From Anaeramoeba flamelloides (lineage: Eukaryota; Metamonada; Anaeramoebidae), in the NCBI GenBank assembly GCA_027625915.1, contig JANTQA010000026.1, positions 2,976,001-3,040,000 on the forward strand: a DNA stretch of 64,000 nucleotides, read 5' to 3'. The notes beneath the pieces are model-generated. The model was not told the origin of the DNA. It saw only the letters and a list, made by a program, of their open reading frames with translations, and did not search any database. The number at the start of each line of letters is the position of its first letter. The stretch's first letter is position 1. Below, one piece after another: positions 2,736-54,106 of the stretch. Made by a program: the position numbers and the translations under genes.

Positions 2736-5612
2736 ATGAGTGTATCACAGATTCTTTCTGACTCTCAACTATTCCCAATAAAAAAAAGCAGAGTTCTACC
2801 GACACCAAAAGCAAACAATAATCAAAATTCAATTGTTTTTCCTTCCGCTGATATATATAAAATACCACCAAAACTTGTTTTCCAGCCTCCAATAAGAAAA
2901 AAAACAAATAACAATACAAAAGCACAGTCTCTGAAAACTGGAAAAAACGAAAATCAAACTGTAAAAAAATTCCCAAAGGATGCAACCCAAAGAATTTTAA
3001 AACAATTCTCCAGGATCACTGAAAAGTATCAACAAGAAAAGAGAGAAAAAAAATCAAAAAAGGTTTATTATTCAAAAAAAAATCTTCCACCACTTTCTGC
3101 CTTTGAAATTGATCAAGTAGCTGATTCAAAAAATAGTACAGATCAAAATTTAAACTTAATAGACGGATGTAATAACAAAAAAAACATTAATAAAAAGAAA
3201 AATTTCGATCTTATAGAGAAAAATTTAGAAGAAGGCCATAATTCCCTTCATATATTTTTGTCTGGTTTTAATACAAGTCAAGAAAAAACAATAAAAATGG
3301 AAAAAGATAAAAAGAGCAAAATAGAAACCGAACAAGAAAACGAAAAAGAAAAAGAAAAAGAAAAAGAAAAAGAAATCGAAAGTGAAAGTAAAAATGAAAA
3401 TAAAAAAGAGAACGGAAATGAAAAAGAAAATGAAAAAGAAAATCAAAATAAAAAAGAACCTGAAAATGAAAATGAAAAAGAAAAAGAGAAAGAAATAGAA
3501 ATAGAGAAAATTAAATGGACACCAAGTGTAACTATCCCATGGGAACCTTTAAATTTTTCTATTAAGGAACCAACAAAATGGAAGCATGCGCCCAAAATTG
3601 CAAGAAAATTTTTGTCTACTGGTGGAGAATTTACTTATGATTTATTTTTTAATCCTTTAATAGTTTCAAAATTATTTCAAGAAACAAACGAAGGAAAAAG
3701 AGAAAAAAAACTTGATCTTCAAGTACTTAAATTATTATCCAAACAAAAGTTGTTATTAACCCAATTGGAAAGGCTAAAATCTTATATTTCAGTTCAGTAT
3801 GATTCTTTATTTGATAATTCTTACTTTCCAAGTTTTGGTAATTATAATAATATTCAAAACCCTTTTAAAAAAAATGTATCAAATCCATTATTTACTTCTG
3901 GCGGTATTAATAGAAACCATACAAACTCTCGGCAAACTACGAGCCAAACCAAACCGATAATAGATTTATCTAAGGGAAAAGTATTATCACCAGAAACAAT
4001 AATCATAAAAAATGAATCTTATTTCATTAATTCTAGAAAAAATTTTTCTACAATGAGGAAAAGGGGATTATCAGGAAATAATAATGAAATACAAGCAACC
4101 GATAATAATCAATGGGGAACAAAATTGAATAATAGCAGCAAGGGGGAGAATAGAAATGGTTATGATCAAAATAAGAAGAGTTGGGAATTGGGTAATAAAT
4201 TTGAAAACAAAAAGGATCCTTGGAATAGTGAGAAACAAAATGACAATTGGGGAAATGGGGAAACAAAATCTTATTATAATAAAGATAATTGGAATCGTAA
4301 TTCTCAGGATAGATTTGGAGGGGAAAACAATAACAAATGGGGTAATGATAATAAAACAATTGAAAAAAAAACCGATAGTTGGGGTGTCGGTAATAATAAA
4401 TCCGAAATAAATGATAGCTGGGGTGCTAATAAGAAATTCGAAAAAAATGATAATTGGGAAAGTGGCGAAAAAAAAAAATATTATAATAAAGATAATTGGA
4501 ATCAAAATTCTTCAGATAGATTTGGAGGAAAAAAAAATGACAGTTGGGGAAATGATAGTAATAAATTTGAGAAAAAATCTGATCCTTGGAGTAGTAACAA
4601 TAAATTTGAAAAAAAAGATAATTGGGGAAATGGAAAAAAAACTGATTATAAAAACAATAATTGGAGTAAAAATTCTTCGGATAGATTTGGAGAAAAAAAC
4701 AATTACAAATGGGGCAATGATAATAATAAATTTGAGAAAAAAGCCGATAGTTGGAGTAGTAAGAATAAATTCAAAAAAAACGAGAATTGGGGAAATGAAA
4801 AAAAAATTGATTATAAAAACAATAGTTGGAATAATAATTCTTCTGACAGATTTAGGGAGAAAAATAATGACAATTGGGGTAATGGTAATAAAAAAATTGA
4901 GAAAAAACCCGGTGTTTGGAGTGTTGGTAATCATAAATTTGAAAAAAACAATAATTGGGGAACCCGGAAAGAAAAATATTATAATAAAGATAATTGGAGT
5001 AAAAATTCTTCTGACAGATTTAGGGAGAAAAATAGTGATAGTTGGGGTAATAATAAATTTGAAAAAAATGATAATTGGAGCAGTGAGAATAAATTCGAAA
5101 AAAACGATAATTGGGGGAACAAAAAAAAAACTGATGATAATAAGGATAATTGGAATAATAACTCTTCAGACAGATCACGCCGTGGAAATAATTATAATTG
5201 GGGCAGTAATAAATTTGAAAAAAATGATAATTGGAGCAGTGTGAACAAATTCGAAAAAAAAAATAATTGGGGAAGCCGGAAAAAAAGATATTATAATAGA
5301 GATAATGGAAGTAAAAATTATTCAGATGGCTTTGGTGGTGGTGATAGTTGGGATAATAATAAATTTGAGAAAAAAAATAATAATTTTGAAGATAAAAACA
5401 AAAATAAATGGGATAATACGATGAAAAGCATAAAAATGGGTTACCCTAACGAAAGGGGAAGTAATCATAGAAGAGGTTTGCATCGAAGAAACGCACATAG
5501 GAGGAACTTGAATAGGAGAGACTCGCATAGGAAAAACACATATGGAATAAACTCACATAGAAAAGACACACATAGAAGAGACTCTAGAAATATCGAATTT
5601 GACAAAAATTGA
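2736..5612 (+). CDS. Asn/Lys-rich protein with about 15 Trp-Gly motifs
   Basis: Single-exon gene of 958 aa; the ATG at 2736 opens MSVSQILSDSQ and the stop is TGA. Family not recognised. Layout: N-terminal 200 aa basic and poorly conserved in look; residues about 200-258 a Lys/Glu/Asn run (KEKEKE type); 260-370 a more normal, possibly folded segment containing KWTPSVTIPWEPLNF and FTYDLFFNPLIV; 455-900 an imperfect tandem array of about seven units of 50-70 aa built from KFEKNDNWGN, DNWNxNSSDRFG and similar pieces; 905-950 a His-Arg block (HRRN, HRRD, HRKD). I count 15 WG dipeptides and many more Trp in Asn/Ser/Lys-rich context. Such WG/GW arrays are known as Argonaute-binding hooks, but that role is only inferred. 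It could simply be a disordered repeat protein. No signal peptide or membrane segment. Confidence 0.8.
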   Translation: MSVSQILSDSQLFPIKKSRVLPTPKANNNQNSIVFPSADIYKIPPKLVFQPPIRKKTNNNTKAQSLKTGKNENQTVKKFPKDATQRILKQFSRITEKYQQEKREKKSKKVYYSKKNLPPLSAFEIDQVADSKNSTDQNLNLIDGCNNKKNINKKKNFDLIEKNLEEGHNSLHIFLSGFNTSQEKTIKMEKDKKSKIETEQENEKEKEKEKEKEIESESKNENKKENGNEKENEKENQNKKEPENENEKEKEKEIEIEKIKWTPSVTIPWEPLNFSIKEPTKWKHAPKIARKFLSTGGEFTYDLFFNPLIVSKLFQETNEGKREKKLDLQVLKLLSKQKLLLTQLERLKSYISVQYDSLFDNSYFPSFGNYNNIQNPFKKNVSNPLFTSGGINRNHTNSRQTTSQTKPIIDLSKGKVLSPETIIIKNESYFINSRKNFSTMRKRGLSGNNNEIQATDNNQWGTKLNNSSKGENRNGYDQNKKSWELGNKFENKKDPWNSEKQNDNWGNGETKSYYNKDNWNRNSQDRFGGENNNKWGNDNKTIEKKTDSWGVGNNKSEINDSWGANKKFEKNDNWESGEKKKYYNKDNWNQNSSDRFGGKKNDSWGNDSNKFEKKSDPWSSNNKFEKKDNWGNGKKTDYKNNNWSKNSSDRFGEKNNYKWGNDNNKFEKKADSWSSKNKFKKNENWGNEKKIDYKNNSWNNNSSDRFREKNNDNWGNGNKKIEKKPGVWSVGNHKFEKNNNWGTRKEKYYNKDNWSKNSSDRFREKNSDSWGNNKFEKNDNWSSENKFEKNDNWGNKKKTDDNKDNWNNNSSDRSRRGNNYNWGSNKFEKNDNWSSVNKFEKKNNWGSRKKRYYNRDNGSKNYSDGFGGGDSWDNNKFEKKNNNFEDKNKNKWDNTMKSIKMGYPNERGSNHRRGLHRRNAHRRNLNRRDSHRKNTYGINSHRKDTHRRDSRNIEFDKN
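4100..5390 (+). repeat. degenerate coding tandem repeat (WG / SSDRFG units)
   Basis: The string encoding SSDRFG recurs near 4308, 4514, 4679, 4845, 5014, 5170 and 5322, giving spacings of about 150-205 bases. Units differ by codon-sized insertions and deletions and keep the frame, as expected for a repeat evolving under coding constraint. Confidence 0.7.
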
Positions 5613-10194: not shown

Positions 10195-13100
10195 TTATGT
10201 TGGAAGGTTTTTTTTCTTTTTCTTTTTCCTTTTCCTTTTCCTTTCAATTTCACTCGAACTTGAAGTTTCACCTGAACTATTACTTGTAACTGAACTTTCA
10301 TTACCCTTTTCAATTCCTATTTTACCGGAATTTTTGTTTTCTTTATTATCTTGATTGGATATTTTCTGTTCTTTTTTCTTTCTTTTTTTGGTTATCTTGG
10401 ACTTTTTCCCTTTCCTTTTCATATCACTTGAACTTGAACTTGAACTTGAACTTGAACTTGGACTTGTACTAGAACTGGAACTGGAAATGGGACTGGAACT
10501 AGAACTGGAACCGGAACTTGAACTTGAACTTGTTCGTTCACTTGAAATTGAACTGTCGCTTATACTTAAACTTTTATTACCCCTTTCAATTCCTATTTTA
10601 CCGGTCTTTTTGTTTTCTTTATTATCTTGATTAGATATTTTCTTATTTTTTTTAATTTTCTTATTTCTTTTTATCTTTGAATTTTTATTTTTCCTTTTCC
10701 TTTCACTTTCACTTGAACTATCACTTGTAAATGAACTTTTATTACCCTTCCGAGTTCCTATTTTACTAGAATTTTTGTTTTCTTTATTATCTTGATTGAA
10801 AATTTTCTTTTCTTTTTTCTTTCTTTTTTTATTTGAATTTTCCTTTTTCTTGTTCCTTTTCATTTCACTTGAACTTGAACTTTCGCTTGAACTGGAACTT
10901 GTTCGTTCACTTGAAATTGAACTGTCACTTAGAATTGAACTTTTATTACCCTTTCCAATTTCTATTTTACTGGTCTTTTTGTTTTCTTTATTATTTTGAT
11001 TGAATATTTTCTTTTCTTTTGTTAAACTTTTTTTTCTAGTCTTTGACTTTTTATTTTTCCTTTCACTTGAACTTTCACTGTCACTGTTACTTGTACTTGA
11101 ACTTTTATTATCCTTTTCAATTTCTATTTTACTAGAATTTTTGTTTTCTTTATTATTTTGATTGGATATTTTCTTTTCTTTTTTTGAACTTTTTTTTTTT
11201 ATCTTTGAATTTTCCTTTTTATTTTTTCTTTCAATTTCACTTGAGCTTGAACTTGAACTTGAACTGTTACTTGCACCTGATCTTTTATTATCCTTTCCAA
11301 TTCCTATTTTACTAATATTTTTGTTTTCTTTATTATCTTGATTGGATATTTTCTGTTCTTTTTTCTTTCTTTTTTTAGTTATCTTGGACCTTTTCCTTTT
11401 CCTTTCGCTTTCACTTGAACTTGAACTGTCACTATTGCTTGTACTTGATCTTTTATTCCCCTTTTCAATTCCTATTTTACTAATATTTTTGTTTTCTTTA
11501 TTATCTTGATTGGATATTTTGTTTTCTTTTGTTGAACTATTTTTTTTAGTTTTCTTTTTCGTTTTATTTTTCCTTTCACTTGAACTTGAACTTGAACTTT
11601 CACCCTCACTTGTACTTGATCTTTTATTGTCCTTTTCAATTCCTATTTTACTAGTATTTTTGTTTTCTTTATTATCTTGATTGAATATTTTCTTTTTAGT
11701 TATATTTGCTTTTTTGGTTTTCTTGGACTTTTTCCTTTTCCTTTCACTTTCACTTTCGCTTAGGCTGGAACTTTTTTTTAAACTTTCATTATCACTTGTA
11801 CTTGAACTTTTATTATCCTTTTCAATTTCTATTTTACGGGAATTTTTGTTTTCTTTATTGTCTTGATTAGATATTTTCTTTTCTTTTTTCTTATTTCTTT
11901 TTATCTTTGACTTTTCATTTTTCATTTCACTTTCACTTTCACTTGAACTTGAACTTTCATTATCGCTTGTACTTGAACCTTTATTGTCCTTTTCAATTTC
12001 TATTTTACTAGTATTTTTGTTTTCTTTATTATCTTGATTGGATATTTTCTTTTTAGTTATCTTTGTTTTTTTGGTTTTCTTTGACTTTTTCCTTTTCCTT
12101 TCACTTTCACTTCCAATTTCACTTTCACTTGAACTTGAACTTTCGCCCTCACTTGTACTTGATCGTTTATTACCCTTTTCAATTCCTATTTTACTAATAT
12201 TTTTGTTTTCTTTATTATCTTGATTGGATATTTTCTTTTTAGTTATCTTTGTTTTTTTGGTTATCTTGGACTTTTTCCTTTTCCTTTCACTTTCAATTCC
12301 AATTTCACTTTCACTTGAACTTGAACTTTCACCCTCACTTGTACTTGATCTTTTATTGCCCTTTTCAATTCCTATTTTACTAGTATTTTTGTTTTCTTTA
12401 TTATCTTGATTGGATATTTTCTTTTTAGTTATATTTGTTTTTTTGGTTATCCTCGACTTCTTCCTTTTCCTTTCACTTTCACTTGAACTTTCACTTGAAC
12501 TTTCGCTTAAACTTGAATTTGTTCTTTTATTTTTAGTCGTGTTTTCTTTGCTTTTTTTTTTCTTTTTTGATTTTTTTTTGAGAGAACTTTTCGTTTTTTC
12601 ATTTTGATGTTCGTTACCTTGATCTTTCATTTCTAAACCTCCGTTTTCTTCTTCGTTCCGCTTTCCCTTGAACCCTTTCTTAAAAATTTGTTGATCTTTT
12701 TTTCTAATTTTTTGCTCATTTGTATTTTTCATTTGCAGTGATTTCTCTTCTTTGTTGTCTTCTTTTTTTTCGTTTTCTTTGGGTACAGCACTGTCTTTTT
12801 CTACAAAGATTTGTTTTAGGTTTTTTGAATTTGACATTGAGAAAGGCCTTTTACTTTGCAAATTATTCTCATTCAAATTTAATAGTCTGTTATCATTTTG
12901 GTTATTTGTATTCTTCTGTTTAACCCCAAGAGTGTTACCAATGCTTTTTTTGGTGTTTGTTTGTGGTTTGGCCTTTTCTTCATAAAAGAAATTAATGGTT
13001 TTTGAAAATTTAATAAGGTCTCTTTTTGGAATTTCTTGAAAGTTAATATACTTTGAGAGATTTAAAACACTTTTCCCTAGATTCGTTGCATTTGTTGCGA

Positions 13101-13725
13101 TACTATTTTCTGAACATAGGTATTGAGCTCTTTCCATAACTCTTTCAGCTAAGGTGTGGCTGTCTAATTTGGTTTGTGAATACTTTAATAATTCAATTAT
13201 TACTTTTTCAGATAATTTATTTAAGCAACCATAGCGCCGAAATATTTTGGTGTAATTCGCCAAAACAAATTTGAAAATCATTTTGTTCAGAGTTGGGGAA
13301 TTTAACGTTTTTGATTTGTTATAAAATTGAAGTGCGTTCTTTCGATTTATTTCACTTTTGATCCATTGAAAGCAAAGACGATCCAAATCAAAAGTTGAAA
13401 ATTGCTGGCTGATTACAAAGAGTTGAAAGACATTATTTTGATGAAGCTTAACTTTCCGTTTGTATACAAAATTTAAATAGTCTTCAAAGTGTTGAGGATC
13501 GATCGAATCAATTTTGATCTGAGTAATTACTTCATCAGATTTGTCTTTCATTTTTTGCTTCCAATTCTTTGGGTAGAGCAATTGTTCCCAAAATGACGAA
13601 GAGATTGAAAAGACTAATTTGTGGCAATAGTATACTCTTGGTTTTTTTCCAACATGAAATTCAATATCTGAGAACTTTTGTTGGTTTTTTAAAAGTTGGA
13701 TCAAAAAAGAAATTGTTGTTGTCAT
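10195..13725 (-). CDS. BTB/POZ protein with long Ser/Lys repeat tail
   Basis: Single exon. The open frame reaches back to a TTG at 13776, but the first ATG is at 13725 (MTTTISFLIQLL), giving 1176 aa. Residues about 6-115 are a BTB domain: the opening FSDIEFHVGKK, then YYCHKLVFSISSSFWEQLL, then FEDYLNFVYKRKV are the usual landmarks. Residues about 118-215 look like a BACK-type helical segment. BTB domains dimerise and often recruit Cullin-3, but with no Kelch or other substrate domain this is open. From about residue 430 the protein is 12 imperfect units of about 55-90 aa: KKISNQDNKENKN, then SKIGIEKGNK, then a Ser/Glu block, then a Lys/Arg block. The alternating acidic-serine and basic blocks resemble nucleolar Nopp140/Srp40-type tails, suggesting a nuclear phosphoprotein (inference). 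Confidence 0.85.
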   Translation of the reverse strand: MTTTISFLIQLLKNQQKFSDIEFHVGKKPRVYYCHKLVFSISSSFWEQLLYPKNWKQKMKDKSDEVITQIKIDSIDPQHFEDYLNFVYKRKVKLHQNNVFQLFVISQQFSTFDLDRLCFQWIKSEINRKNALQFYNKSKTLNSPTLNKMIFKFVLANYTKIFRRYGCLNKLSEKVIIELLKYSQTKLDSHTLAERVMERAQYLCSENSIATNATNLGKSVLNLSKYINFQEIPKRDLIKFSKTINFFYEEKAKPQTNTKKSIGNTLGVKQKNTNNQNDNRLLNLNENNLQSKRPFSMSNSKNLKQIFVEKDSAVPKENEKKEDNKEEKSLQMKNTNEQKIRKKDQQIFKKGFKGKRNEEENGGLEMKDQGNEHQNEKTKSSLKKKSKKKKKSKENTTKNKRTNSSLSESSSESSSESERKRKKSRITKKTNITKKKISNQDNKENKNTSKIGIEKGNKRSSTSEGESSSSSESEIGIESERKRKKSKITKKTKITKKKISNQDNKENKNISKIGIEKGNKRSSTSEGESSSSSESEIGSESERKRKKSKKTKKTKITKKKISNQDNKENKNTSKIEIEKDNKGSSTSDNESSSSSESESEMKNEKSKIKRNKKKEKKISNQDNKENKNSRKIEIEKDNKSSSTSDNESLKKSSSLSESESERKRKKSKKTKKANITKKKIFNQDNKENKNTSKIGIEKDNKRSSTSEGESSSSSSSERKNKTKKKTKKNSSTKENKISNQDNKENKNISKIGIEKGNKRSSTSNSDSSSSSESERKRKRSKITKKRKKKEQKISNQDNKENKNISKIGIGKDNKRSGASNSSSSSSSSSEIERKNKKENSKIKKKSSKKEKKISNQNNKENKNSSKIEIEKDNKSSSTSNSDSESSSERKNKKSKTRKKSLTKEKKIFNQNNKENKKTSKIEIGKGNKSSILSDSSISSERTSSSSSESSSSSEMKRNKKKENSNKKRKKKEKKIFNQDNKENKNSSKIGTRKGNKSSFTSDSSSESERKRKNKNSKIKRNKKIKKNKKISNQDNKENKKTGKIGIERGNKSLSISDSSISSERTSSSSSSGSSSSSSPISSSSSSTSPSSSSSSSSSSSDMKRKGKKSKITKKRKKKEQKISNQDNKENKNSGKIGIEKGNESSVTSNSSGETSSSSEIERKRKRKKKKKKNLPT
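10231..12420 (-). repeat. 12-unit coding tandem repeat in the BTB gene
   Basis: Units start at the sequence encoding (K)KISNQDNKENK. The two units covering 12038-12409 are exactly 186 bases (62 codons) each and nearly identical, so the array has been expanding recently at that end; units towards the C-terminus vary in length, mainly in the serine run. Confidence 0.8.
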
Positions 13726-15328
13726 TGAGGAAAAAATGAGAAAATGATTGATTGATTTTGAAAAGGTTTGTTTCAAACAGAGATAGAACTCTTTTGTTAA
13801 TCAAAAAAAACCTAGTTAATAATGAGACAGGGTTAAGGTTGAAGAAATGTTGTACATTTGAATTGTATTCTTTCAGTTAATTAGTTTGTTTTTTTTTTAA
13901 TTACCTAATTTATATGAAACCTTAATAGTAAAATCAGTAAATTTTTTTGGAGAAAAAGCCAATAAAAACGTTAACAGTGAAAGTGAAATTGAACAATTTT
14001 CACCATAGTGTTAATTGAAATAGATATGTTAAAAAATTTTCGGTTCCTTTTCCAAATTGTTTTTTTGTTAAATTGAGTTAGCAAACAATTTAATTGTAGT
14101 TTTTTGTTTCTTTTAGTCGAGAAAAATATGAAAATGGAAAGGAAAATTTAGTGAGAATGTTCCTTTATTTATAAATTCAAATATCAGTAAGATTTAAATT
14201 TACTACCTTCAGAATTTTGTCTTATACTCTGATTATTTTTCTGAATATTTTCATACTTGTTGACGATAGAATGAGTTAAGTTTCAATATATTACAAACCA
14301 AAAATATTTAATTTTATTTTACCAAAAGTTTTACTTTTTTCATTTTAAATTCAAAGGTTACCTTGAAAATATTGTGAAAACAATGTCCTATTATAAAAAT
14401 ACAATTCCATTTTATTTACATATATTATCGAATTTGAATTGTATATATATATATATATATATTTATGAATAAGATCTCAATATCCCATAAGATTAGAAGT
14501 AAAATTTTACTTTTATTTTTATTTTTATTTTTTTTCTAATGATCCAATCTAATTCAACAAAATTACCCACTATTTATCTAAAATTCTATATCTATTTACA
14601 TTTTTTTATCCCAGCTATAAAAATGGTTTGAGTAATGTTCAAGAATTTCTTTAATTATCTATTTTTGTGGGGGAAAGGTGGAATATATTATTTATCCCTT
14701 AATGACCGAAAATTCTTAATTAAAATTTAGTATAAAATCATATATTTCATTATTTTATGAAAGAGGCCAAAATATTCGACCAAGTAGATATAAAATGAAA
14801 TATATAACGATATTATATTTTTAATTAGAACTTTAAAGACCAGTTGAGTTCATAAATATCATTTTTTTTTTCACTATAAAGATTTGTATTTGAATTTTTC
14901 TTTTTGTTAATTTGATCACATTATTTTTGTTTTTTTTTATTAATTTAAAAGCTATTCAAGATCTTTTTTATACAATCCCAACCCAAGGCACCAATTCTAG
15001 AGTGTTAACCAAGTTCGAATATCAAATGAATTTATTTTAAGAAATGGTTCATCTAGTTTGCTTCAATTATTTTATCAGTGTTTATAACAATTTATTTCGT
15101 TTGGATGGCTTTTGCGAAGATCTAATAATAAATTAATTAAATTTGAAAATTTTAAGATTTTTTCAAAAACAACTTAAGTAATTCTTTAAATGGTTTATTA
15201 TCATTTAACCCCCCCTACAAACACATAATAAACTATAGCAAGAATAAGATGAACAGAAATATCTTAAAAAATGAACTTGAAAAAAGTAAAAAATATCAAC
15301 AATAAAAAGAATAAGTTGTATATTTATG

Positions 15329-18292: not shown

Positions 18293-18977
18293 TTATAATA
18301 CCGAAAGAATAAAAAATAATATAATGCCAAGAAATAAAAGCAAAGTATTTGCAAATTTATTTTGTGGTTGTTGATTCTCCTGATCGATTGTTTCCTCTCC
18401 AGAATCTAAATCAACTTCATTTGCACGATTTCTGATCCTTTGGTTTGTTGAGACTGAAAAATTTAAACCTGGGAAGACACCCATTTGCATACCAAAAATG
18501 CCTGTCGATATTTGAAAGTTTGGCCTCATAAATTGTTGATTCTGGGGATTGTTTTGTTCTTGTCTTTTCCTATGTCTCCGCGAGGGGCGGTTTCTTCTTG
18601 CTTTTGGTCTTTGTGGGACGCTTTTTTTTTCGGTTATTTCCTCTGTATCATTCTGATCATGATTGTTCTTGTGTTGGCTATTATTTTTTGTTGTTACATT
18701 GGGGGCTGTAGAATTTCCATAAACGGGGATAATGTCTTTGTCTTCTTGGAGATCATTTCCACATGTTGGGCATTTTGAATTCTCTCGATCAAAATGGTTT
18801 TTTAAACAAAACCAACAAAACAAATGCCCACAAACCGTTAGTACAGGTTCTGTTGCAAAATTATAACAAATTCCACATTGTCCAATTTCCTTCTTTTGTT
18901 TTTGTTTTTCTTTTTCTTTTTCTTTTTCGTTTTGTTGATTCTTTTGTTTTTCGTTTTTTATTTGTTGATTCTTTGTT

Positions 18978-19009
<32 letters not shown>

Positions 19010-19384
19010 GTTAAGATTAATTGTATCAATTAGATTTTCATTTGTGGTTTCGTTTTCTGTTGTTACTTTTTGTTCTTGTTGTTTTTTGGTTTGTAGATTT
19101 TGGAAAAATTGTTGGAATAATTCATAGTTCCTTTGAGCAGCATTTGAGCAAACTACGTGTAATTTGTTTTCTTTTTCTTCTTCTTGTTCTTTTTTGACTT
19201 TTTCTGTGATTTTTGAATTTTCAGGTTCTGGTTTAAAAGGCAATGAAAGTGGGATATTATTTCCTAAATAATAAAACCCATTTTTTAATTGTAAAGTTTT
19301 CCATGAATCATGTGCAACCAATTCGTATTTACCACAAATTGAACACCACTTTAATTCAAGAGAGAGGTCTTGAATAATTGACAT
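18293..19384 (-). CDS. tail-anchored RING-finger E3 ubiquitin ligase, RNF5/RNF185-like
   Basis: Single exon, 363 aa, ATG at 19384. A C3HC4 RING lies at residues 170-208: CGICYNFATEPVLTVCGHLF, then CWFCLKNHF and CPTCGNDL, the spacing and wording of the RNF5/RNF185 group, including the following DKDIIPVYG. The last about 18 residues (LLLFLGIILFFILSVL) are one hydrophobic segment ending at the C-terminus, so a tail anchor, in the family usually in the ER membrane, where these ligases act in ER-associated degradation. Compared with the about 180-aa animal proteins it has a long N-terminal part: residues 1-60 with a Cys pair (WCSICGKYE) and a folded look, then a Glu/Gln/Lys low-complexity linker (about 60-168). 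A basic Arg-rich stretch sits after the RING. The family call is firm, the substrate unknown. Confidence 0.85.
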
Positions 19385-48581: not shown

Positions 48582-51376
48582 TTTTGAAAATGTTCTTAAT
48601 TTAAAGCAATTGTTCTGAACTAAAGTAAAATATAAAAAAATGAAAGTCAAAGTGTATCTCCTTTCTTAAAAAATAACCTTTTAAAAGTCATAAACAATAT
48701 TTTGTTAAGGGTTTAGAATCTACAAAGGAGAAGTCTAATATTAAAGTATATCGTTATTGGATAAAAATCACATTAGTAGGCCATGATTCAAATGTCTCTA
48801 AAAATCGATTGTATCAAGTAGTACTATTTTTCTGATCAGCATCAATTAAAAATGAATTATTGTATTAGTAAAAATTCCAAGAATTTCAGGAAAAAATCTA
48901 CATTTTGCAACAAATTTAAAGCTGAACAATCAATTTCCTGACTCCAAATTTGCAAAATGTCTGTTTTTATATTTGTCCTGAAATACATACGAGTTGATAA
49001 AAAATTCGATTGTTTAAAAAATTAAATAATTAACAAAAAGAATAATTTTGTCAAATTATTTCTCACATATTGGTAAATATATTGATGCTACAATTATATT
49101 TATAAAAAGAAAACACAAATTATCAGTCTTCGAGTTTATATGTTGATTATTATTGATTTAATATTTAAAATTAAAAATTTATAAAAATAATAGTAACTGT
49201 TGGAAGTTCTATATATGAATTATCACCTACTGGAATACTATTATTTGTTTTTCTTTTTTTTTTAGAATTGGTAATAGGAATTTAAACAAAAATTAGTAAA
49301 ATAAATAATTTTTAATTGTAATCATTAGTAAAAGAATGTAATAATTTATGGTGTAAAAATACTTGGAATACATTTTTTCAGGGTCACACAAACCATGTGA
49401 AACATGAAGTGTTAAAATTATTATAATGAATTGTTACATACTTCAATTATAGTTGAAAATAATGCGAGGATAACCCCTTTATAATCTATATCTTTAACCT
49501 TTGTCTTTAATATCAAAAAAATATTTTTTTTCTTGGTTACAGCTATTTACTTGAAAATTTATATTTTAATTGAACTGTTTTTTTTTTTTTTTATTTTTGA
49601 TAAAATGATAGGAATAAAAAATTTAAACTGAAAGTTCACATATTCGACCCTCTTTTTAAAAGTAAAACAAAAAACCAAAAGAATTCAATATGATTTTTTA
49701 TAAAATTATTTTAACTATTTCAGTAACCTTCGAATAATATATATTTACTTAATGACTGTAAAGAACTTACAATAAAAAAAAAATTAGACAATAATCATGT
49801 ATTAAAAAAAAATCGAAAGAAAAGAAAAAAGCGAAAAAATGATTTAAATTTTGGAATTTCTTCAATTAAAACTTTTTGGGATATCTATTTAAAAACTTAA
49901 AAAACATTTCATTAATGTTTTGTAACTGGACTAATAATTTTGGTAAAATTTTTTGAATCAAGAATCAATTACAATTTCTTTTGGAAAAATTTAGAAGTAG
50001 TTATTCATTTTGGTTTTGAAGAAATATATATGAAAAAAGAATTTTGAAAACAAATCTGTAAAGAAAATGTTTTGTTGAATAGTAATAGTTAGGAATTGAG
50101 TGAGAAATCCAAGGTTATAAAATATTAGTTTCATCCAAATTAAGAAGATAAAGGAAACAAATCTTCAAAAACTAGGGGTTGGTAGATTTTTAATATATTC
50201 TTGATTTTTCAACAAATTCAATTTAGAAAGGTGATCTCTTGTGTTTGGTCTTCAAAAAGAAAATATTTTTTTATAAATATACACTTTTATGTGTTTATTT
50301 TTTTTTGGTTTACTTTTTGATTAATTTCAAACATTCGTATAAACAAATTTTTAGGTCCAAAACCAAATTTAATAAAAACCAAAAATTTAATTAACAAAAT
50401 ATGTTCAAAAAATTAAAAAAATGAAAGATTCAACTCTGATTTACTTTTACTCTTTTCACAAATAAAACAGTTGGGAATGATATTTTGGTTTCAAAGTTTC
50501 AATATCTTATAGCTCTCAAAAAATCATTTTTCAGTAATGTACAGACAATTAAAAATTTTCAAAATAGTAATATGTACTTACTTCCTTAAATTACTAATTT
50601 CCCTTTGAGAATTACCAACTTTACTGATTTATTTGAATTCTTGGGTGGTTTTTTTTTTACAGAAAGTTGAATGAAAATTTTGATCTTTTTATTTTACAAT
50701 TAACAGCAAAGGGTTTGTTCAACAATTTTAAATCGAGTAAAACTAATTTTGCGAACCGGATTCAACTAATACAGTCAGTTCCACTTCTAAGGCACAAACT
50801 TTGAACAAAATTTGAGGTACAATAATAATCTCAAATTAAACTACAGAATTCAGATTCTATTAAAATAAATTGTGTAAAAAAAAATTCCAAATTTTGTGTC
50901 TTATTTGAGATTTTTTTCTGCCTTAAATTTTGTTCAAAGTTTGTGCCATAGAAGTGGAACTGACTGTACTTTGAAATAGTGTGAACACCAAAATAGGATT
51001 TCTTCTTATATATTCAACATCATTTCAAAATATAAAAGGTTTTAGTGAAAGGGTATCAATCGGTTTCCCGATAAAGTCGAAAAAAAGTGAGCCAATAGGA
51101 TTTAAAAATGATTTAAATTTTTACTTGAATTATTTGAGAAAATTTTTTAAAAGTTTTTCAATCAATAAATAAGTTTTTAATTGCCACAATCAACCCAAAA
51201 ATGAAATATTCTGACTTTTCTTCAATTCAAAACGTTAAGATCACTTTTGTTGGTTACTGTATTGTGTTTTGATCATACAGAAATTAAATTAGGATAAAAT
51301 ATAAATCAGATATACCAATTATTTTTTTGTATTTTTTTTTTAAAAAGAGGAAAATTTTTCTTTTAATCAATACAAA
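48582..51376. other. non-coding stretch before the sulfatase-like gene
   Basis: Contains an old repeat (49050-49430) similar to 8480-8880, a fragment near 50660 similar to 34890, and the F3 element at 50772-50966. The frame at 50981-51172 starts just outside F3 and has no recognisable product. Confidence 0.55.
50772..50966. mobile_element. F3 palindromic element with TA target duplication
   Basis: Left cagtcagttccacttctaag with gcacaaactttg, right an almost perfect complement (agaagtggaactgactg). Flanked by TA on both sides, as for Tc1/mariner-type insertions. 195 bp, no coding capacity. Confidence 0.8.
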
Positions 51377-54106
51377 ATGGATCAAACAAGAAAAGAACCT
51401 TTTTCTAAATTTAAAAGCTTCATTAATCTAATGGCTATTGAGTCACTCGTTATTCTTCTTTTTCTTTATTTGTTTTCGCCCACCTCAAACATCACAACTT
51501 ATTTTTTATTAGTTTTGCTTAAAGCTGTGTTTGCATTCTTATTTTTGTATCGAGGTCTAAACAATTATGGGGTTTTAAAGATCAAAATAAAGGCGAATTT
51601 TGCTTGGGCTTTTGAAATTGTTGTTTCAATTATTATTGCGATTGTAATCTTTTTTGTCTCAGTACTTTTTCATTTTTTCTTTATCGACACAAAGATTAAT
51701 AAAAATTTTACATTTTGGGATGAACAAGAAAACTCAAAAGGCTTGCTTGTAAAACTGAATAAAGGAGTATGGTGGCTCGTTGTATGTCCAATACTTTATT
51801 CATTTGCTTTCATTATACAAGAATTTGTAATGCGTTCAATTTGCCTTGAAAGTCTTTTAAAAAAAACTTTAAAGGCTATTTCCAATGAGCAACGATCGAA
51901 AAGGATTCACAAAAAGAGAAAAACGACAGCAATTAGATTCTTGGTGGGTTCCGTTGGCAAATATTTCAAAAATAATCAGAATCAGTTCCTCTTAATTTTC
52001 TTGATTCAATTTTGTGCAAGCTGGATCAGTACCTTTGCCAACATTCCTATTCTCATTTTAGATCTTGGTCTGCAGAATTCTATCATAATCATTTGTAAAA
52101 GCATCTTATTAGTATTTTCAATCGATTTAATTTCTTCTTCATATTATTTGGTGTTTGGGAATTATTTTTGTTCGGCTTTTATCAAAATTGCACTTTATTT
52201 GTATTTTCGGGGAATCCAATTGATACTATTAAAATTTTCTTTTCTCTTTCAAATTAGTTATTTGGTCGTGGTCTCAATTTTAATATTACAATTACAGAAC
52301 TTGATCTCGTTTATGAATATTAAAAACGAAAAGTCTTTTAATACAGCATTTGTTTGCAAAATTTTTCACAAATTAAAATTAATTGATATCAAAAAGAAAA
52401 CCAAACATAAAAAAATTGTTAAACAAGAACAAGAAGAATTTAGATCCAAAATTGTAAAAAAACATAAACTGGAAGAAGAAAAAGTAGAGAGGAAGTCAGG
52501 AGGAGAAGAACAAGAAGAAGAAGAAGAAGAAGAAGAAGGAAAAAAAAAAAACTATTTAAAAAATAAAGAAATAGATAACAAAATACAATATGAACAAAAT
52601 AATTTAAATGACAACATCGAAGAAAATAAGGTTTTAAAACAAAACAAAATTGATAATGGGAATAGACTCTTGAAAATCTTAACAAACAAAAACAACCAAG
52701 TGAAATTATCGAGTTTGTGTATTATTTTTTTGATCTTGCTAATATTGATTATAATCATCGTTCCGTTTTTGTACTATTATTCCTATTGGTATCCTTATGA
52801 TTTAAATGAAAATGGGCATTGTGATTCAAATTCCTTTATAACAATACATAATAATGATGAGAGTCACCATATTAATGATGATCGGAATGAGAATAATGAA
52901 TTAATTCAAATAACAAAATGTCAAGGAAAGATTACCATCGAAGAAAGAGAATATTTTTCAAAAGGAAAATATACAATTCGATCAAGAATAAAAAATGCTC
53001 GTAAAATAGCTCTCGACAATAACCAAGAAAATGATCGAAGGGTTGTATATGTTATATGTTCGGGATATTTTGGAAAAGTAATTGAGATCTATCCGCTTAT
53101 TCCCAAACTTGAAACTCAGAAATTAACTAAAAAACAAACAATAATCGATAACAATGATCAAACATTCCATCCAAACATTTTAACTTTAGTCTTCGATGGC
53201 GCAAGTCGGAAAAGCTATTTAGAAAATCTTCAAAAAACGAAAAAAATGATCCAGAATTTGGAAAAAGATCACCATTTAAAATCTTGGTCTTTTGATGGGT
53301 ACCGTACCTTTTCAAAGGCATCAGCAAAAAACCAAAGGCCCATGTTTAGTGGCCAAAGCGATAAAATAAGGCCCGACAATGGGAGATGGATTTGGAATTT
53401 TTATAAAGACAAACTGAACTATATAACTACGGTTATTGACCAAACATGTAAAGATAACGATTCTGTCCAAAACAGCTTTGGCTTTAATATTGGGAAATTA
53501 AAGAATGAAGTTTCTTTTGATCATAGGGTCATTGTCCCATTTTGCGAGAAAAAATGGAACCCCTTTGCAAACAATAAGCCTCATTGTCTATATGGGCAAT
53601 ATGGGCATAATATTATTTTTAGTAATATTAAAAGAATTTTCAATCTGAAGAATTATAATAAATTTTCCAAATTCATAATTTCTTATTTTTATGAATCACA
53701 CGAAACTTCTCAAAAGGTTTTAAAAACAATAGATGCTGATTTGGCCCAGTTTATTTACAAGTTTTACCAAACAAAGGAAAGTCAATACACAATCATTTTA
53801 TTATTATCTGATCACGGAATCCATTATGGTGCCAATTCTCATATTCATCATAAATTCCCTATTTTTGAATTAATTATCCCGAATGAAACCTTAGATCATA
53901 TGGCCGGGATAGATGAACATTTATCAGAAAATTTGCATACAAAGTTTAATGTCTATGATATATATTACACTTTGAAGCATTTTGGTATTTATCCAAAGCA
54001 AATAGAAATTTCCAGAAAATTCGATAGCTTGCTCAATTTTATCCCTGAACGGTCATGTAGAGATACATTCATGCAAGATGAGTATTGTGTAGCTTGGAAA
54101 AAATAA
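51377..54106 (+). CDS. multi-pass membrane protein: CPBP-like domain fused to sulfatase-like (DUF229) domain
   Basis: Single exon, 909 aa, ATG at 51377. Residues 1-310 hold about seven to eight hydrophobic segments. Within them IIQEFVMRSICLESLL (147-162) resembles the EExxxR motif of CPBP/CAAX-type intramembrane proteases, ISTFANIPIL (217-226) the F-A-x-x-H-x-P motif, and YLVFGNYFCSAFIKIAL (257-273) the final GSLWAPILAHAL-like motif; the key Glu and both His are replaced (Gln148, Asn222, Lys270), so it would be a non-catalytic relative (inference). Residues 340-440 are a charged Glu/Lys linker, 446-468 another membrane segment. Residues 550-905 are a sulfatase/alkaline-phosphatase-superfamily domain of the DUF229 type: TLVFDGASRKSYLENL (metal Asp607, candidate nucleophile Ser610), FYESHE, and LLLSDHGIHYG (810-818). 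Likely faces the lumen or outside. Substrate unknown. Confidence 0.7.
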   Translation: MDQTRKEPFSKFKSFINLMAIESLVILLFLYLFSPTSNITTYFLLVLLKAVFAFLFLYRGLNNYGVLKIKIKANFAWAFEIVVSIIIAIVIFFVSVLFHFFFIDTKINKNFTFWDEQENSKGLLVKLNKGVWWLVVCPILYSFAFIIQEFVMRSICLESLLKKTLKAISNEQRSKRIHKKRKTTAIRFLVGSVGKYFKNNQNQFLLIFLIQFCASWISTFANIPILILDLGLQNSIIIICKSILLVFSIDLISSSYYLVFGNYFCSAFIKIALYLYFRGIQLILLKFSFLFQISYLVVVSILILQLQNLISFMNIKNEKSFNTAFVCKIFHKLKLIDIKKKTKHKKIVKQEQEEFRSKIVKKHKLEEEKVERKSGGEEQEEEEEEEEGKKKNYLKNKEIDNKIQYEQNNLNDNIEENKVLKQNKIDNGNRLLKILTNKNNQVKLSSLCIIFLILLILIIIIVPFLYYYSYWYPYDLNENGHCDSNSFITIHNNDESHHINDDRNENNELIQITKCQGKITIEEREYFSKGKYTIRSRIKNARKIALDNNQENDRRVVYVICSGYFGKVIEIYPLIPKLETQKLTKKQTIIDNNDQTFHPNILTLVFDGASRKSYLENLQKTKKMIQNLEKDHHLKSWSFDGYRTFSKASAKNQRPMFSGQSDKIRPDNGRWIWNFYKDKLNYITTVIDQTCKDNDSVQNSFGFNIGKLKNEVSFDHRVIVPFCEKKWNPFANNKPHCLYGQYGHNIIFSNIKRIFNLKNYNKFSKFIISYFYESHETSQKVLKTIDADLAQFIYKFYQTKESQYTIILLLSDHGIHYGANSHIHHKFPIFELIIPNETLDHMAGIDEHLSENLHTKFNVYDIYYTLKHFGIYPKQIEISRKFDSLLNFIPERSCRDTFMQDEYCVAWKK

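Follow-up and report, generated by a model that had tools for sequence, protein, structure and literature searches.

A five-gene family in Anaeramoeba flamelloides joins a multi-helix membrane module, plausibly a former CPBP protease, to a DUF229 domain

Does one reading frame of Anaeramoeba flamelloides encode a membrane protease of the CPBP type that has lost its catalytic residues and been joined to a lumenal hydrolase? The question arises at positions 51377 to 54106 of a 64,000-nucleotide stretch of DNA (here the window, meaning the whole stretch analysed), for which an earlier note had proposed such a fusion. The window belongs to a 254-Mb assembly of 76 contigs, and its GC content ranges from 17 to 28% in 2-kb steps. 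Genes of eukaryotic kind include those for a putatively Rce1-like protein (L024), for APH-1, and for a TCP-1/cpn60 C terminus.

Several other features of the window were recorded. A BTB-domain ORF (10198-13776, minus strand) carries tandem repeats with periods of 165 to 357 in its Ser/Lys-rich part, and a 165-base tandem repeat of 5.8 copies (4391-5326) lies within a 958-aa ORF rich in Asn, Lys, and Trp. A RING-finger ORF with a hydrophobic C-terminal tail (18296-19384, minus strand) presumably resembles a tail-anchored E3 ligase. About 400 bases before the ORF studied here, an inverted repeat (50770-50968) has 56-nt arms that are 91% complementary and 87 nt apart; it produced 90 rows of matches, counting both strands, from the 40 of 3,463 first-look candidates that were scored, the best others being about 90% identical, and by these matches it is a MITE-like repeat family.

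One open frame and its four paralogs

The plus strand holds a single ATG-to-TAA ORF of 909 codons, encoding 909 aa (protein P0001), with the following parts:

51377..54106, plus strand: whole ORF, 909 aa; N-terminal module, linker, TM9, and DUF229 domain
51377..52312, plus strand: N-terminal module, residues 1-312, about eight predicted TM helices (hydropathy averaged over five paralogs)
52295..52714, plus strand: K/E-rich linker, residues 307-446 (33 of them basic, 26 acidic); probably in the cytosol
52715..52771, plus strand: TM9, residues 447-465, predicted anchor of the DUF229 domain (averaged hydropathy)
52817..54097, plus strand: DUF229 domain, residues 481-907 (PF02995 match), with eight Cys invariant in the five paralogs

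A search with the whole of P0001 returned four paralogs in the same genome: L002 (813 aa), L003 (833 aa), L004 (825 aa), and L005 (849 aa). The order of parts is identical in all five proteins, and each is encoded by one open frame at its own locus, on five contigs in total. The claim that a membrane module and a DUF229 domain share one frame was thereby borne out, and the arrangement is kept as a five-gene family. A read-through of two adjacent genes, or a false join in the assembly, would find a foothold in the low-complexity junction and in nothing else; the paralogs, each with an open frame on its own contig, contradict it. Since four paralogs have the same layout, chance read-through or misassembly appears very unlikely, and we give it practically no weight.

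A tree was built from the 12 DUF229 proteins that the genome yielded, and all five fused genes fell into one clade (support 97/96). Under midpoint rooting, in a tree for which the program warned of long branches, the next branch to this clade was the following gene:

L007:379-2508, plus strand: DUF229 gene, 142.6 bits, best of five proteins scanned together

Of the seven DUF229 genes outside the clade, L007 has, by eye, a multi-TM N terminus of its own, different from that of P0001, and L010 to L013 have one hydrophobic stretch at the start, unlike the fused five. The simplest reading of the five-gene clade would be one fusion event followed by duplication.

Searches of the genome with the whole of P0001, and with three of the five N-terminal modules, found no free-standing gene for the module; these searches did not join exons. 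Relatives of the fusion numbered zero among 310 pattern stretches of viral contigs and zero among 168 pattern stretches of prokaryotic genome contigs, and the literature search found no paper combining CAAX protease, sulfatase, and domain fusion. The fusion architecture is real, is known so far from this genome alone, and is unpublished as far as the literature search shows.

The DUF229 domain and its active site

Residues 481 to 907 matched PF02995 with an E value of 2.7e-16 (59.8 bits, cut-off 25), confirming the DUF229 assignment that had been made. The paralogs L002 and L005 scored 84.1 and 79 bits in hmmscan; L003 and L004 had no PF02995 match there, yet the genome search scored them at 28.7 and 27.6 bits. 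The general Sulfatase model stayed below its cut-off in P0001 (13.7 versus 25); a PDB search with the domain gave a sulfatase as the best match, at an E value of 0.098. The DGxS and SDHG motifs that had been reported are present (FDGAS from residue 606 and SDHG from 811), and the candidate active-site residues, together with the two paralogs that have lost them, are as follows:

53195..53197, plus strand: D607 of FDGAS, probable metal ligand, by comparison with residues of LtaS, EptA, and YejM (PMC7576196, in excerpt)
53321..53323, plus strand: S649, candidate nucleophile (SxxNQ), by spacing
53699..53701, plus strand: H775, kept in P0001, L002, L005, and L007; Phe in L003 and L004
53810..53815, plus strand: D812-H813 of SDHG, probable metal ligands, by motif and spacing
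53849..53851, plus strand: H825, 12 residues after H813, a spacing as in EptA and MCR-1
L003:1498-3996, minus strand: paralog with DUF229 active-site residues lost, frame open
L004:1498-3972, minus strand: paralog with DUF229 active-site residues lost, frame open

The excerpted source gives the same spacing of 12 for His453 and His465 of EptA and for His251 and His263 of MCR-1 (PMC7576196). All six positions (D607, S649, H775, D812, H813, and H825, or their equivalents) are kept in P0001, L002, and L005, which are probably metal-dependent phospho-/sulfo-hydrolases or transferases. In L003 and L004, the first five are replaced by S, T/V, F, E, and D/E, and the last His is kept; these two are probably binding or regulatory pseudo-enzymes. 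Identity between L003 and L004 is 71% and 64% for the two halves, with dN/dS values of 0.30 and 0.22 (a simple count, rough for the second half, where dS is 1.06). Both halves of these paralogs are constrained despite the active-site losses.

One could suppose that the whole protein is a non-enzymatic scaffold for signalling or adhesion, with the hydrolase fold acting as a binding module in all members. The loss of active-site residues in two of the five would suit such a scaffold and their retention in the other three would not, and we hold it to be improbable. The eight invariant cysteines, together with two to five sequons in the DUF229 part of each protein, fit a lumenal domain.

The N-terminal module and its possible CPBP kinship

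Hydropathy averaged over the family predicted helices at residues 15-33, 42-62, 85-103, and 127-147 (TM1 to TM4) and at 208-226, 242-260, 267-285, and 288-306 (TM5 to TM8). When each paralog was taken alone at a stricter threshold, between 6 and 8 helices preceded the linker, and L005, with eight, did not have entirely the same set; the charged linker itself varies from 88 to 140 residues. Among the presumed cytosolic parts, loop 2 has a net positive charge in all five paralogs, loop 4 in four (it is neutral in L005), and the linker in four (the exception, L003, has 21 basic and 24 acidic residues). Only in P0001 is the N terminus net positive, so the predicted topology depends on the linker and on loops 2 and 4. 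A single-sequence AlphaFold model (pLDDT 54.2, pTM 0.27) was too poor to judge fold or topology. The five paralogs all agree at 11 module positions, of which E149, N262, and K270 alone have a charged or amide side chain. BLAST with the L005 module matched none of the other four modules, so the homology of this module to the others rests on its position before a homologous DUF229 domain.

The motif strings behind the CPBP proposal are in place in the P0001 translation: QEFVMR at 148-153, FANIP at 220-224, and FGNYFCSAFIKIAL at 260-273. We place the CPBP equivalents as follows:

51818..51835, plus strand: motif-1 equivalent QEFVMR, residues 148-153, where TM4 ends; E149 shared by all five paralogs
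52016..52030, plus strand: putative motif-2 equivalent ASWIS, residues 214-218, in TM5, with no His (register inferred from L002 and L005)
52160..52186, plus strand: N262-x7-K270 as the motif-3 equivalent, N262 ahead of TM7 and K270 within it; all five paralogs have both residues, with Lys replacing the CPBP His

FANIP had been named second in the motif order; the putative register sets the motif-2 equivalent at 214-218, four residues upstream of FANIP. The statement that the catalytic Glu and His were replaced holds for the motif-3 His, now Lys, but in motif 1 just the first Glu is changed (Q148) and E149 is kept. Within the EExxxR pattern, EE occurs in two paralogs (L002 and L005) and Arg in two, and the pattern is complete only in L005 (EEILMRG). 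L002 and L005, the two paralogs without a long TM4-TM5 loop, each carry Asn at EE+34. By eye, no His occupies the aligned motif-2 position in P0001, L003, or L004; L003 has one His two residues away from it. Where CPBPs have the motif-3 His, every one of the five paralogs has Lys, the residue four positions on, where HxxxN has its Asn, is Y, M, F, F, or I, and no His is invariant anywhere in the module across the five. For MmRce1, we take the catalytic set to be E140, H173, H227, and N231; the residues of P0001 equated with these are Q148, S218 (in the putative register), K270, and Y274, all four of them changed. Judging by these alignments, the CPBP protease residues are missing from the module, whatever its origin.

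An active, if unusual, protease might still be argued for at least L005, given that both Glu residues are kept there and in L002 and that L005 keeps the Arg too. The Asn at the motif-2 position of these very two paralogs, the Lys in place of the motif-3 His, the replaced Asn of HxxxN, and the want of any invariant His all speak against proteolysis, which we consider very improbable.

If the module is not a working protease, is it nevertheless derived from one? For comparison, we assembled 103 CPBP references in total: 75 that passed the length filter among the best 80 of 95 loci from bacteria and an archaeon, 24 of 30 further loci from 15 genomes, and four proteins of this genome. The ORF filters demanded motif-1 patterns, so the conservation of motif 1 in this set is by construction. 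The motif-2 His stands 34 residues after the first Glu in 77 of the 100 sequences that have both residues, and the residue eight before the motif-3 His is Ser, Asn, or Thr in 95 of 102. In L002 and L005, the Lys is found at +89 and +87, with an Asn eight residues before it. The Rce1-like L024 of this genome has His at +34 and +86 (GNVLSCIIPH); in the CPBP gene L038, the His of motif 3 is at +87 and that of motif 2 at +41 instead of +34. CPBP proteins carry motif 2 in TM5. The key residues of the module fall within or adjacent to TM4, TM5, and TM7 (by averaged hydropathy; single paralogs have 6 to 8 helices), and an excerpted source places CPBP motifs in TM4 and TM7 (PMC11980579).

The spacing agrees less well farther along the chain. 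From the +34 position to the Lys we counted 53 residues in L005 and 55 in L002, while the distance from motif 2 to motif 3 in CPBP proteins is 33 in 74 of 99 sequences and at most 52 (in two of them); the CPBP-based reading is slightly weakened by these distances. From EE to Lys, the distance is 122 in P0001 and 108 in both L003 and L004, 19 to 35 residues more than in L002 and L005.

The profile evidence is confined to motif 1. The match to PF02517 that the earlier note's proposal implied was not obtained: hmmscan gave none for the module of P0001 or of any of the four paralogs (cut-off 22.4 bits), and a genome-wide profile search returned 19 PF02517 places, none of which is one of the five fusion genes. 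(Many of the 19, a set to which L023 to L037 belong, are by eye bacterial-type, with sequences such as EIIFRGFFQ and an apparent exon border at the EE motif.) Aligned with hhalign, the profile of the five modules matched the 103 CPBPs with P values of 0.0082 (full length) and 0.0038 (core) and the first 79 with P values of 0.01 and 0.005. Each time the match spans just 24 columns and sets QEFVMR on EExxFR, and forcing a longer alignment gave low confidence outside motif 1. Reversed CPBP profiles, used as a control, gave P values of 0.14 and 0.32. Columns were also shuffled with gaps and helix/loop state preserved, one version preserving hydropathy class as well; these shuffles attained the real score in 1 and 8 of 500 cases (core) and in 3 and 5 of 500 (full length). 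A first shuffle control was dropped; in it, shuffles reached scores of up to 147, and 167 to 184 of 400 did at least as well as the real profile, the probable cause being that gap patterns had been left free.

Narrower comparisons were weaker. The five-sequence profile against the two Rce1-like proteins alone gave a P value of 0.18. Tested singly against the 79-sequence set, L005 gave P values of 0.0059 and 0.006, which rose to 0.037 and 0.019 with the wider set; P0001 gave 0.32 and 0.40, and L002 gave 0.023 (not at motif 1) and 0.6. In hmmsearch, the numbers of shuffles per 1,000 that scored as well as the real sequence were 677 (P0001), 787 (L002), 343 (L003), 14 (L004), and 63 (L005) with the core profile and 641, 118, 933, 552, and 214, in the same order, with the full profile. 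A PDB sequence search with the module returned zero matches; a profile of true CPBPs likewise missed Rce1 in the PDB, so this search is an insensitive test. With the whole family as query, the best PDB matches were of coiled-coil kind and fell on the linker. Furthermore, CPBP had been picked after the motif was seen, and independent evidence can thus come from the paralogs alone.

These results leave CPBP ancestry of the module plausible and unproven, and we rate it slightly better than an even chance. The dead protease proposed for this locus stands as to its missing catalytic residues, given CPBP kinship; the kinship itself is plausible, its profile support being marginal and limited to motif 1. 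A serious but less probable alternative, to which we assign somewhat under an even chance, is that the module is a multi-helix domain unrelated to CPBP, in which EE/QE and N-x7-K arose by chance or convergence, and which would still be a TM part of the EptA/LtaS/YejM kind. Such a domain would explain why Pfam and the insensitive PDB search gave no match, why the single sequences gave negative or weak results, and why the spacing to Lys lies beyond the range of 99 CPBPs; the post hoc nature of the motif agreement also favours it. It accounts poorly for the motif-1 register with its shuffle outcome, for an Asn at +34 in L002 and L005 alike, and for key residues in or beside TM4, TM5, and TM7.

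A possible history and the known systems

Our working account is that of a DUF229 protein with a noncatalytic N-terminal module, probably once of CPBP/Rce1 type, that positions the lumenal domain; taken as a whole, we put it just short of even. The ancestor would have been a type II DUF229 protein with a cytosolic N terminus, one TM anchor, and a lumenal domain of the alkaline phosphatase superfamily. Its N terminus would then have acquired a module of about eight helices, probably an intramembrane protease of the CPBP/Rce1 type, whose Glu/His catalytic cluster was lost and gave way to the invariant Glu-Asn-Lys set. No longer proteolytic, the module would hold and position the lumenal domain at the membrane and would probably bind a lipid-anchored or membrane substrate of that domain, a role also proposed for the TM portions of EptA, LtaS, and YejM. 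By the same analogy, it may deliver or scaffold the hydrolase. In L003 and L004, binding would have been kept and catalysis lost. A more specific version, which we think rather unlikely, is that the dead Rce1-type module with a buried Glu-Asn-Lys set is a lipid-binding or regulatory TM part, making L003 and L004 double pseudo-enzymes, maybe sensors of lipids or anchored proteins.

Should the module prove to be related to CPBP, it would be another CPBP fold turned scaffold, fused to the enzyme it serves, so that its partner is known at once. On the same condition, DUF229, a family of unknown function according to Pfam, would be placed in a membrane setting, which would hint at a lipid-linked or membrane substrate. 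Among the five paralogs there are also natural forms that retain the hydrolase active site and others that lack it, useful as test material.

Among known systems, APH-1 and the staphylococcal proteins LnsB and SpdC are described, in excerpts of PMC6588880 and PMC7387801, as having a CPBP fold or being CPBP-like and are held there to be non-proteases, APH-1 having QExxR; in the same excerpts they are not joined to a lumenal hydrolase, unlike P0001. This genome has APH-1 (PF06105) matches at three separate loci (L122 to L124), from which gamma-secretase-type complexes seem likely in this organism. With CPBP/Rce1 proteins (PF02517), the module shares some eight TM helices, as predicted by averaged hydropathy, the motif-1 register, and, in L002 and L005, an Asn where motif 2 would fall by spacing; it differs in having no catalytic residues, no significant Pfam match, and a longer distance from motif 2 to motif 3.

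With the DUF229 family (PF02995), P0001 has its C-terminal domain in common. LtaS has a five-TM domain, and in EptA-type enzymes the junction between the TM and extracytoplasmic domains is short. Compared with YejM, EptA, and LtaS, the fused family has about eight TM helices rather than five, a long charged linker, and the additional TM9; moreover, it is eukaryotic, and its domain is DUF229, while the domains there belong to other families. As described in an excerpt of PMC7576196, YejM/PbgA, EptA/MCR-1, and LtaS share with it a multi-TM N terminus and an extracytoplasmic alkaline phosphatase superfamily domain on one chain, the ligand-like residues of P0001 are also common to this group, and the His-His spacing of 12 to EptA and MCR-1. 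The same excerpt gives YejM and EptA a 5-TM domain and reports that YejM without it loses about 97% of its phosphatase activity (PMC7576196). The plan of a multi-TM part followed by an alkaline phosphatase superfamily domain is already known, and the family described here is a variant of it with a plausible but unproven pseudo-CPBP part.
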